Position numbers and translations under genes: made by a program. Below are positions 2,299 to 42,353 of a DNA stretch of 64,000 bases, piece by piece; position 1 is the stretch's first letter, and each line of letters begins with the position of its first letter. The DNA comes from Petrachloros mirabilis ULC683 (GTDB lineage: Bacteria > Cyanobacteriota > Cyanobacteriia > Thermosynechococcales > Thermosynechococcaceae), in contig NZ_WVIC01000019.1 of NCBI RefSeq assembly GCF_009939295.1, positions 1 to 64,000 on the forward strand. Direction: 5' to 3'. Below the pieces are notes generated by a model. The model was not told where the DNA came from. It saw only the letters and a list, made by a program, of their open reading frames with translations, and searched no databases.

Positions 2299-2408
2299 GC
2301 GGAGCCAAACGGTGAAGGGGTAACGCGCTAAAATTCGATTAGCTAGGAAAGGCCTACGGCGTCAACCTTCTTTCCCATTCACCCTCCTTCCTAAATCTGG
2401 TGACGAGC

Positions 2409-2840
2409 ATGGAAGAATTGTTGGAACTGAAGGATTTATTGTTGCGGGGCGATATCCCTGCCGCATTGGTCATGGTGGAAGAGCTTGAGGAAATGAGCCG
2501 AGATGACAAGATCAGTAACATTCGCAGTTACGCTAAGGTTCTGCTTCTTCATTTAATTAAGCAACAGGCTGAAAATCTTACGACGCGCTCGTGGGATATA
2601 TCCATTCGTAACTCGGCTCTGGAAATTCAAAGCAAAAATAACCGTCGCAAAGCCAGCGGCTATTATCTCAATCCGGAAGAGTTACGCATAGCGCTTGAAG
2701 AAGCCTATGAACCGGCGCTGAATGCAGCCTCTCTAGAAGTTGCTCAAGGGCTCTATGATCCAGAAATGTTAGAAAATCAGCTCGATCGCGATGCGATTCT
2801 TGATCGGGCGCTGGCTTACATCTGGCCTCAAGCTCAGTAA
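2409..2840 (+). CDS. DUF29 family protein
   Basis: 143 residues from ATG 2409 (MEELLELKDLLLRGD); a GTG three codons earlier is the alternative. The pattern of an N-terminal helix, KVLLLHLIKQQAE and TRSWDISIRNSALEI, then a C-terminal DRDAILDRAL matches the DUF29 family, helical proteins of unknown function that are abundant in cyanobacteria and often sit beside Uma2-type genes. Its stop codon overlaps the start region of the interrupted Uma2 gene at 2840, so the two may once have been co-transcribed. The family call is from pattern recognition only. Confidence 0.65.
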   Translation: MEELLELKDLLLRGDIPAALVMVEELEEMSRDDKISNIRSYAKVLLLHLIKQQAENLTTRSWDISIRNSALEIQSKNNRRKASGYYLNPEELRIALEEAYEPALNAASLEVAQGLYDPEMLENQLDRDAILDRALAYIWPQAQ

Positions 2841-3587
2841 TGCAAATGGCAATCTACAGCACTAACCCCAATCCCCCATTCTGCGGTATGACCAGCTTTG
2901 TGCTTGATCTAAGCCCGATTGTCACGCTTACTCGTGCAGAATTCCAAAAGCTCTGTGCTGCGAATCCGGATATGAAACTAGAGCGCAGCGCTAGCGGAGA
3001 ACTGATTGTGATGTCTCCCACTGGTGGTGAAACCGGAAATCGCAATTCCGAATTAACGGCTGAAGTCGTTGTTTGGAATAAACAGAGCCAATTGGGCAAG
3101 ACGTTTGACTCGTCCACAGGGTTTGCTTTGCCGCAAGGAGGCGATCGCTGTCCCGATGTTGCCTGGATTCCTCTGGTTAAGTGGGAAGCCCTGACCCCAG
3201 AGGAACGACGTAGCTTTCTGCCCCTCTGCCCTGATTTTGTGATTGAGTTGCTTTCCTCATCTGATATAGCGGTTTACAGATCAATGGAGTACATGGGGTG
3301 CAGGGGTCAGTGCCCCCTGCGTGGGGGTTTCACCCCCACACCCCGTACCTCACTCAGGTGAGAACCGCTATACCTGGAGCCAAGGTCAGAAAAAGATGGA
3401 AGAATATCGGAAAAATGGTTGTCAGTTGGGCTGGTTGCTTGATCCCAAGAATAAGCGTGCAGGTGTCTATCGACCAGGACAACGATCTCTTGAAAACAAG
3501 ACTACGGTAAAATGTCGCTCTGGAGTTCAGAGCAAGCTGGACAAAAGCGACAGCGTGAACGACTCGCAGCCAAACTCAAAACCCTAG
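2840..3587 (+). pseudogene. Uma2 family endonuclease interrupted by a MITE-like element
   Basis: The 5' part (2840-3266; likely start ATG 2840 or 2888) encodes a normal Uma2 N-terminal two thirds: a TRAEFQKLCAANPD helix, ELIVMSPTGGETGNRN, RCPDVAWI and FVIELLSSSD. The frame is then broken by a 106-bp insertion at 3267-3372. The rest of the domain resumes at 3373 in another frame (WSQGQKKMEEYRKNG, GWLLDPKNKRAGVYRPGQ). Joining 3266 to 3373 restores codons SSD-T-WSQ exactly. The 3' end is also decayed: a third frame at 3530-3595 carries a typical Uma2 tail (QKRQRERLAAKLKTLG), where one base too many hides the usual LGIDPN ending. As it stands only a truncated product is possible. Confidence 0.85.
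3265..3372 (+). mobile_element. MITE-like repeat, family A, copy 1 (108 bp)
   Basis: Bounded by perfect 10-bp terminal inverted repeats, TATAGCGGTT at 3265 and AACCGCTATA ending at 3372. The interior is GC-rich and holds nested hairpins (GGGGTCAGTGCCCC and GGGGGTTTCACCCCC). Removing 106 bp and leaving one TA restores the host Uma2 frame, so the TA at each end is the duplicated target, as in IS630/Tc1-mariner-type transposition. It has no coding capacity, so it is non-autonomous. Other copies are at 8550-8657 (inverted) and 12847-12900 (truncated). Confidence 0.85.
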
Positions 3588-3617
3588 GGTATTGATCCGA
3601 ACCTAATTTAAGCCCCA

Positions 3618-4593
3618 ATGACTTCTCTACCATTCTTGGGCATACTCCTGCTTACCACAGGCGTAAGCACCCTTAGTGTCTACAGCGTTAAACGCCAACT
3701 GGCACCCCAACTCCTCGATATCCCCAACGATCGCAGCTCTCATACCCAACCTACCCCTCGTGGCGGTGGACTGGGCTTTATTCTCTCCTTTGCCCTTTTC
3801 AGTGGTTTTCTATCGTTCACGCCGATCATCCCCAATGCCCTTGCCCCCCTTCAAACTTGGGTTGTCTTGCTTCCCTTAGCTGTTATTGGCTTTCTCGACG
3901 ATCGTGGTAGCATTTCTGCCAAAATTCGCTATCTGGTGCAACTCCTTTGTGCTGGCCTTGCTCTCTATTGCTTTGGTGCCTTTCCCCAACCCTGGTTGAC
4001 CCACTGGGGAGCTATCGGCAGTGGCATTGCCTTGCTCCTCACCTTGATTGGCTTCACCGCTCTGATTAACTTCACCAATTTCATGGATGGCCTCGATGGC
4101 CTTGTTGGTGGCGTCAGCGTTGTCCAGTTTGCCTTTCTTGCTCTCTACCTACAACAGCCAGTCTGGTGGCTGCTCGTCGCCGCTCTTTTGGGGTTTCTGA
4201 TTTGGAACTGGTCGCCTGCCAAAATTTTTATGGGAGATGTTGGCAGTACCGCTCTGGGTGGGGCGCTGGCTATTGCTCTCCTTAACGCTTCGAGCCCTTC
4301 CCAGGCTTGGAGTGCTCTGGCCATTACCCTGCCCCTCACCGCTGATGCTATCTACACCTTAATTCGTCGCTTGATTCGCCGTGAGAACATCTTTGCTGCC
4401 CATCGGTTCCATCTATACCAGCGTCTACAGCAGCATGGCTGGAGCCACGGCACCCGTCGCCCTCACCTATATCAGCTTGACAGGGTTCATTGCGATCGCA
4501 CTATTCCTCGATTCCCAAATCGGAGCCTGGCTGAGCCTATTCACGACATTGGCATGTATTCTCCTGGCAGAGGCATATTTAAGAAAAATCTAA
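3618..4593 (+). pseudogene. WecA/MraY-type sugar-phosphate transferase (glycosyltransferase family 4), frameshifted
   Basis: This polytopic membrane protein would transfer a sugar-1-phosphate to a polyprenyl phosphate, the first step in making a cell-surface polysaccharide. Motifs in order: PRGGGLGF, FLDDRG (catalytic-loop Asp pair), NFTNFMDGLDGL, KIFMGDVGSTALGG and AAHRFHLYQRL, separated by hydrophobic helices. From 3618 the family match runs to QHGWSH near 4448; it then jumps by one base to a frame giving APVALTYISLTGF plus a last transmembrane pair and ending at 4593. One surplus G near 4449-4450 explains the break. Read without correction the product is 341 residues with a meaningless, non-membrane tail. 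Either a real mutation or a sequencing error. Confidence 0.8.
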
Positions 4594-4955
4594 GAATTCA
4601 AAGATTCCCCATCACCCCCGTCAACCTGTCCCCAAGCGACTAACTAAGCCCTCGATCATAGCCGTGCTGGTGAAAACCTATCTGCGGGCAGCTTAAGCTC
4701 TAAACAAATCCATCACCCATCTGCCCCCTGTCTAGCTCAGATAGGGGGCAAATTTGTGCTGTCAAAAATTAGGTTCGCTCAATCCATTGCCAATCCCAAG
4801 CTAAAGCAGACGCTTCAGGTCATAAGAAACTCAACAGACTCAGCTGTGAGTGAGTCTATGCCATCAAGCCTTACAAAACTTCCAAACTCAGATCCCAGAG
4901 ATCGACTAAAGTGGAGGGTAGCAAAAATCCAGTCGTGACCAGGGATCAGTCTAGT
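4594..4955. other. Intergenic region before dxs
   Basis: 362 bp with no convincing gene. It contains one strong hairpin (4722-4750, listed separately). The rest is unstructured and includes a possible dxs leader with several in-frame stops. The small frames here lack family features and biased codon use. Confidence 0.6.
4722..4750 (+). terminator. Intrinsic terminator-like hairpin
   Basis: TGCCCCCTGTCT at 4722-4733 pairs over 12 positions (one G-U) with AGATAGGGGGCA at 4739-4750, leaving a 5-nt loop. It is followed by AAATTTGTG, a weak U-tract. It lies 128 bp after the end of the glycosyltransferase gene and 205 bp before dxs, a position expected for a terminator of the upstream gene. Confidence 0.55.
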
Positions 4956-41829: not shown

Positions 41830-42153
41830 ATGGGATTTTTTGATTCAGAGATTGTGCAACAAGAAGCCAAGCAGCTCTTTGAGGATTACCAATCTCTCTC
41901 ACAGCTTGGCAGCGACTACGGCAAGTTTGACCGTGAGGGCAAAGTCATCTTCATCGAGCGAATGGAGCAGATGATGGATCGCTATCGCATCTTTATGAAG
42001 CGATTTGAGTTATCAGACGACTTCATGGCTCGAATGACTGTAGAGCAGCTCAACACCCAAATGGGGCAGTTTGGGACTACCCCCAAGCAAATGTTTGACC
42101 AAATGCACATGACCCTAGAACGGATGAAGCGAGAAGTTGAGCAGACTCTTTAG
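41830..42153 (+). CDS. DUF1825 family protein
   Basis: 107 residues from ATG 41830 (MGFFDSEIVQQEAKQLFEDYQ), which matches the usual N-terminus of this cyanobacterium-specific family; an in-frame extension upstream to 41761 is not conserved in type. The rest is helical: GKVIFIERMEQMMDRYRIFMKRFELSDDFMARMTVEQL. No function is known. The stop codon at 42151-42153 coincides with the edge of a tandem repeat (42142-42353), so the 3' end of its message is repeat-derived. Confidence 0.85.
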   Translation: MGFFDSEIVQQEAKQLFEDYQSLSQLGSDYGKFDREGKVIFIERMEQMMDRYRIFMKRFELSDDFMARMTVEQLNTQMGQFGTTPKQMFDQMHMTLERMKREVEQTL

Positions 42154-42353
42154 TGTTCCGTCAGGAAAATTTTGAGGAGTCGCAGAGCCTCAAAATTTAA
42201 CCCCCATCAACTTCTGGATACTCAGCTATCCTTCAAGACAAAGTTGACAGACTCTTTAGTGTTCCGTCAGGAAAATTTTGAGGAGTCGCAGAGCCTCAAA
42301 ATTTAACCCCCATCAACTTCTGGATACTCAGCTATCCTTCAAGACAAAGTTGA
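42142..42353. repeat. Two perfect tandem copies of a 106-bp hairpin repeat, family C
   Basis: 42142-42247 and 42248-42353 are identical. Each unit begins CAGACTCTTTAG, contains the hairpin AAATTTTGAGG/CCTCAAAATTT (11 bp, 10-nt loop; 42167-42198 and 42273-42304) and ends AAAGTTGA. The first eight bases of a third unit follow at 42354. It starts inside the last codons of the DUF1825 gene and ends 41 bp before tRNA-Asp. Placed between converging genes, the hairpins could terminate both. Confidence 0.9.

Follow-up and report, generated by a model that had tools for sequence, protein, structure and literature searches.

A non-autonomous transposon of the IS630 type (Tc1/mariner superfamily), a miniature element (MITE) of 104 bp, has almost certainly inserted at a TA dinucleotide within a nuclease-like Uma2 gene of Petrachloros mirabilis ULC683, breaking its reading frame. 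The window (the whole 64-kb stretch of DNA analysed, to which the positions refer unless a locus is named) contains both halves of the gene on either side of the element, and the features on which the argument depends are the following.

2888 to 3264, + strand: Uma2 gene, 5' part, with ATG 2888 as likely start although the longest ORF begins at 2840 (Pfam PF05685, homologues)
3265 to 3266, no strand: left TA target copy (outer TA in all 70 aligned copies; related empty sites have one TA)
3265 to 3274, + strand: left terminal inverted repeat including the TA, TATAGCGGTT, by motif search of the window
3267 to 3370, + strand: IS630-type MITE, 104 bp (58 perfect-end copies, 138 right ends, 70 copies aligned)
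3300 to 3320, no strand: internal hairpin 1, with G or C at its centre elsewhere in the family (sequence, fold, loop counts)
3321 to 3339, no strand: internal hairpin 2, loop TTC here, mostly TCC or GGA elsewhere in the family (loop counts)
3359 to 3361, + strand: TGA inside the element, terminating the interrupted Uma2 frame (ORF 2840-3361)
3363 to 3372, - strand: right terminal inverted repeat including the TA, TATAGCGGTT, by motif search of the window
3371 to 3372, no strand: right TA target copy (outer TA in 69 of 70 aligned copies)
3373 to 3506, + strand: 3' part of the Uma2 gene, back in frame on removal of 106 bp (PF05685, 32.5 bits; joined, 137.9)
3512 to 3595, + strand: third-frame tail MSLWSSEQAGQKRQRERLAAKLKTLGY (shuffle tests against tails of another Uma2 subfamily; no Pfam Uma2 match)

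The interrupted gene and its rejoined frame

Taken separately, the left part of the gene matches the Uma2 profile PF05685 with 94.2 bits over profile positions 2-107, and the right part with 32.5 bits over positions 112-150. When 106 bp are removed and one TA is kept, a single match is obtained with 137.9 bits over positions 2-149 of 172, well above the curated cut-off of 27 bits. The sequence-only reading of this DNA had proposed that precisely this deletion would restore the frame across SSD-T-WSQ and that the gain of 106 bp (106 mod 3 = 1) was what had shifted it; both statements hold, and coordinates, length and frame were all correct. In fact, the bases at the borders would allow 104, 106 or 108 bp to be taken out, the element measuring 104 bp between the TAs and 106 bp counting one of them, and the frame is restored by 106 only. 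As it stands, the interrupted ORF 2840-3361 ends with 31 residues and a TGA stop contributed by the element. Position 2840, given in that reading as the beginning of the gene, does open the longest ORF, although comparison with homologues makes ATG 2888 the likely true start.

An alignment of the joined frame with intact Uma2 homologues had been put forward as the way to check the reconstruction, with gaps as the refuting outcome, and no gap appears at the junction. The joined protein reads IELLSSSD-T-WSQGQKKMEEY at this point, the homologues being IELLSPSD-S-WKHGLAKMEEY in Pseudanabaena biceps (69% identity to the joined protein) and IELLSPSD-S-WKQGEVKMQEY in Pseudanabaena sp. lw0831 (67% identity). 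The junction was gap-free in the alignments with uninterrupted Pseudanabaena-type homologues as well as with seven paralogues of the same genome, and at the DNA level the joined sequence aligned across it without gaps with loci L124, L125 and L028.

The 3' end of the gene

The similarity of the rejoined frame to Uma2 proteins fades near residue 185 and profile positions 150-172 are absent, which means that the gene carries a second defect. A second, independent decay of the 3' end, with an Uma2 tail in a third frame, had been claimed from the sequence. The missing C-terminus and the third-frame tail are indeed there, but the tail (3512-3595) is not similar to the C-terminus of the orthologues and instead resembles coiled tails found in another Uma2 subfamily. 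Its score against L070, L102 and the second Uma2-like gene of L124, the best three tails, was reached by only 1-2 of 2000 shuffles, while a Pfam search of the tail returned no Uma2 match and DNA comparison with relatives gave no match past about 3456. In P. biceps the orthologue is immediately followed by a gene that carries a tail of this type, the remaining neighbours being unlike those of the window. Likeness to a different subfamily and this tandem arrangement fit a deletion between two neighbouring Uma2 genes, and, judged from sequence comparison, such a fusing deletion would account for the 3' end at least as well as the decay of one gene.

This second defect bears on the order of events. 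It is possible, if somewhat doubtful, that the Uma2 gene was already dead, so that the MITE landed in a pseudogene and was not the inactivator; the lack of profile positions 150-172 and a tail lying in another frame speak for it. Against it, the insertion aside, the frame stays open between 2840 and 3587, and profile positions 2-149 are covered with no further stop or shift. The MITE may have inactivated a functional gene or landed in a dead one.

The adjoining glycosyltransferase family 4 gene (window 3618-4643 and 4381-4593) also looks frame-shifted near its 3' end, where a hydrophobic stretch running to LLAEAYLRKI goes on in another frame.

Borders and structure of the element

The element is an IS630-type MITE: it is short and non-coding, has no transposase gene and is bounded by terminal inverted repeats. 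The 10-base ends of 3265-3372 are perfect inverted repeats, TA included, the first bases being TATAGCGGTTTACAG and the last GAGAACCGCTATA; when TATAGCGGTT and its reverse complement were searched for, the two ends of the element were their sole occurrences in the window (0.01 expected). Strong internal hairpins are present, folding of the entire element as single-stranded DNA giving z = -7.0, and an Rfam scan of window 2400-4400 yielded no match above chance. Only two bases, 3307 and 3330, differ from the family consensus, so that on this scale the insertion looks recent.

Duplication of the TA target

An empty site was reconstructed for each copy by joining its two flanks around one TA, and the products were compared with all the sequence collected. 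For copy L102, the joined flanks matched L058 with 99% and L105 with 97% identity over 117 bases with no gaps, and for copy L089 they matched L118 with 85% and L010 with 83% over 109 bases, also with no gaps. Direct reading gives CCTGATACCTA-TA-ATGG in L058, where L102 has CCTGATACCTA, the element with two TAs, and ATGG. Uninterrupted sister copies of a duplicated sequence thus have exactly one TA at the sites of both insertions, from which it follows that insertion of a family member adds 106 bp and duplicates the TA. These empty sites are other copies within the same genome, which is the only member of its genus among those searched. Duplication of TA on insertion, a property of IS630 and Tc1/mariner elements, is therefore seen in the TA borders of 69-70 of the 70 aligned copies as well as in the gap-free single-TA sites, and the Uma2 insertion is one instance of a rule observed directly in other copies. 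Together with the gap-free junction in the gene, these data bear out the earlier statement that the element transposed into a coding gene at a TA.

A dispersed repeat ending in TGACAAAAGAGGGATA adjoins MITE copies and the truncated IS630 copy (L010, L058, L065, L079, L089, L118), and in L089 it is the target of the MITE.

The family in the genome

The genome is a draft of 79 contigs and 4.12 Mb, in which MITE copies were examined as stretches around matches. Two perfect ends are found in 58 copies, and the right end TATAGCGGTTYTCACCTGAGTGAG occurs, at up to 2 mismatches, in about 138 places. When 70 distinct copies were aligned, 63 proved to be exactly 108 bp long counting both TAs; the outer TA was found at the left border of all 70 and at the right border of 69, with unrelated sequence beyond. 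The family thus shows the dispersal in high number, the near identity and the constant borders expected of a MITE. In copies starting with TACAGCGG the outer TA is constant while the inner base varies, and the inner T is therefore distinct from the outer TA.

The copies are mostly intergenic, and a recognisable gene is clearly interrupted by only one of the 70 sampled, that in Uma2, a proportion to be expected if insertions into genes are mostly selected against. Two other candidates were rejected as gene insertions: the joined frame of L094 is long, but its junction lies near the frame start, apparently upstream of a phospholipase-D-like gene, and the joined frame of L131 resembles no recognisable gene. 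At L078 (contig 38, 11064-11283) two copies stand side by side in the same orientation, sharing a terminal TA junction. A further repeat family appears in the window at 42153-42316, where a TTGATGGGGGTTAAATTTTGAGG...CTGACGGAACAC-like sequence occurs twice; it is also found at several other loci of the genome.

The hairpin loops of the copies look as if they invert as units. Among the scored copies, the loop of hairpin 2 was TCC in 33 and GGA in 22, the three bases switching together, and the centre of hairpin 1 was G in 49 and C in 9. It is conceivable, though rather unlikely, that the loops of both hairpins flip as whole units during the spread of the family. If this were true, the copies would preserve traces of replication or repair passing through a hairpin or a switch of strands, in addition to simple cut-and-paste. 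A literature search on hairpin loop inversion in MITEs found nothing relevant.

A 39-base right-end pattern, with as many as 3 mismatches allowed, was searched for in 291 genomes of the class and was found in this one only (0 of the 290 others). The presence of the element at the same position in homologous genes of unrelated species had been named as the outcome that would speak against the insertion, and the absence of the right end from those 290 genomes is the reverse of it. In a MITE search of 58 genomes, the source included, the matches elsewhere were just partial ones within G-rich hairpins and a similar right end in one other genome, G037. The latter, which belongs to another cyanobacterial family, has a MITE (L050, L055, L060, L064) whose right end, TATAGCAGTTTTCACCTGAGTGAAGTACAG, is similar but whose body differs.

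Relation to IS630 transposons

The terminal sequence TATAGCGGTTTTCA is common to the MITE and to full-length IS630-family transposons of other cyanobacteria. One such autonomous element is L163, an IS630 of 1,022 bp with TATAGCGGTTTTCAGATGAGAACA at both ends, these agreeing with each other in 22 of 22 bases and ending in TATAGCGGTTTTCA; the full-length DDE_3 elements L154, L167, L169 and L170 end in close variants of TATAGCGGTTTTCA. All five resemble the MITE in that they end in TATAGCGGTT or TACAGCRGTT and are flanked by a TA, and differ from it in their length of about 1.02-1.04 kb, in their DDE_3 transposase and inside the first ~14 bases. Duplication of TA and the end sequences together point to the IS630 family (Tc1/mariner superfamily). 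In this context, ISY100 of Synechocystis PCC 6803, also an IS630 member of Tc1/mariner type, inserts at TA and duplicates it, and 30 bp of each end suffice for its movement; unlike the MITE, to which it is likened by description, it is autonomous, with its own transposase gene and 24-bp repeats (PMC2170065).

A DDE_3 search of the source genome found two IS630 copies only, L009 and L010. The first is a complete copy whose HTH and DDE_3 parts are divided between two ORFs; its ends are TAAAGCGGTTTTCATAATTA and TATGGCAGTTTTCATAATTA, of which only the core is common with the MITE. The second is truncated at its 5' end. With only the core of the ends matched by the genome's own copies, the source transposase may be that of L009, one since lost, or one collapsed in the draft assembly. 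The HTH and DDE_3 frames of L009 (1387-2353, - strand) meet near an A-rich stretch, CACAAAAAACG, and possibly their junction is a site of programmed frameshifting.

It is very improbable that the family is a REP/REPIN-like or other structural palindrome, spread by means other than IS630 and with TA borders that belong to the repeat instead of being a duplicated target. Some features would suit such a repeat, namely the strong internal hairpins (z = -7.0), the location of copies mostly outside genes, the loops that flip as units and a genome without an IS630 copy having identical ends. Nevertheless, related empty sites retain exactly one TA, the ends match IS630 terminal repeats of other cyanobacteria, and they consist of TATAGCGGTT with TA duplication, not of the GTAG or CGTC tags described for REP super-families (PMC3733652). 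That the interruption is an artefact of assembly or sequencing has a negligible probability: such repeats commonly cause misassembly, but this one is just 108 bp long and inside an 81-kb contig, the window copy has two private bases (3307 and 3330), and the flanks on both sides make up one Uma2 gene.

Proposed mechanism and significance

Most probably an IS630-type transposase, presumably acting in trans and by cut-and-paste, moved a MITE copy from elsewhere into the TA of the Uma2 site. The insertion duplicated the TA and added 106 bp, which shifted the frame, and the stop codon brought by the element truncates the Uma2 protein midway through its conserved domain, probably with loss of its function.

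Comparable elements have been described in other cyanobacteria. The MITEs of Anabaena sp. 90, likened here by description, are also short, non-coding, inverted-repeat elements with more than 100 copies, mostly intergenic, and 15 of 147 break ORFs; they show no similarity to the inverted repeats of that genome's IS elements, whereas the ends found here match IS630 of other cyanobacteria (PMC3542288). Further gene-breaking cases in cyanobacteria have been reviewed (PMC10969869), and Nezha (Zhou et al. 2008, cited in PMC10969869) is likewise a small non-autonomous cyanobacterial element, likened by description only. The Uma2 case is an ordinary instance of a well-known type of mutation, and the general picture is unchanged, MITE-made pseudogenes of cyanobacteria having already been published. 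What it provides is a clean example of a passenger transposon breaking a gene, backed by empty sites in the same genome, and a link between the IS630 transposons of cyanobacteria and a high-copy MITE family that, of 291 genomes of the class, was found in this one alone.
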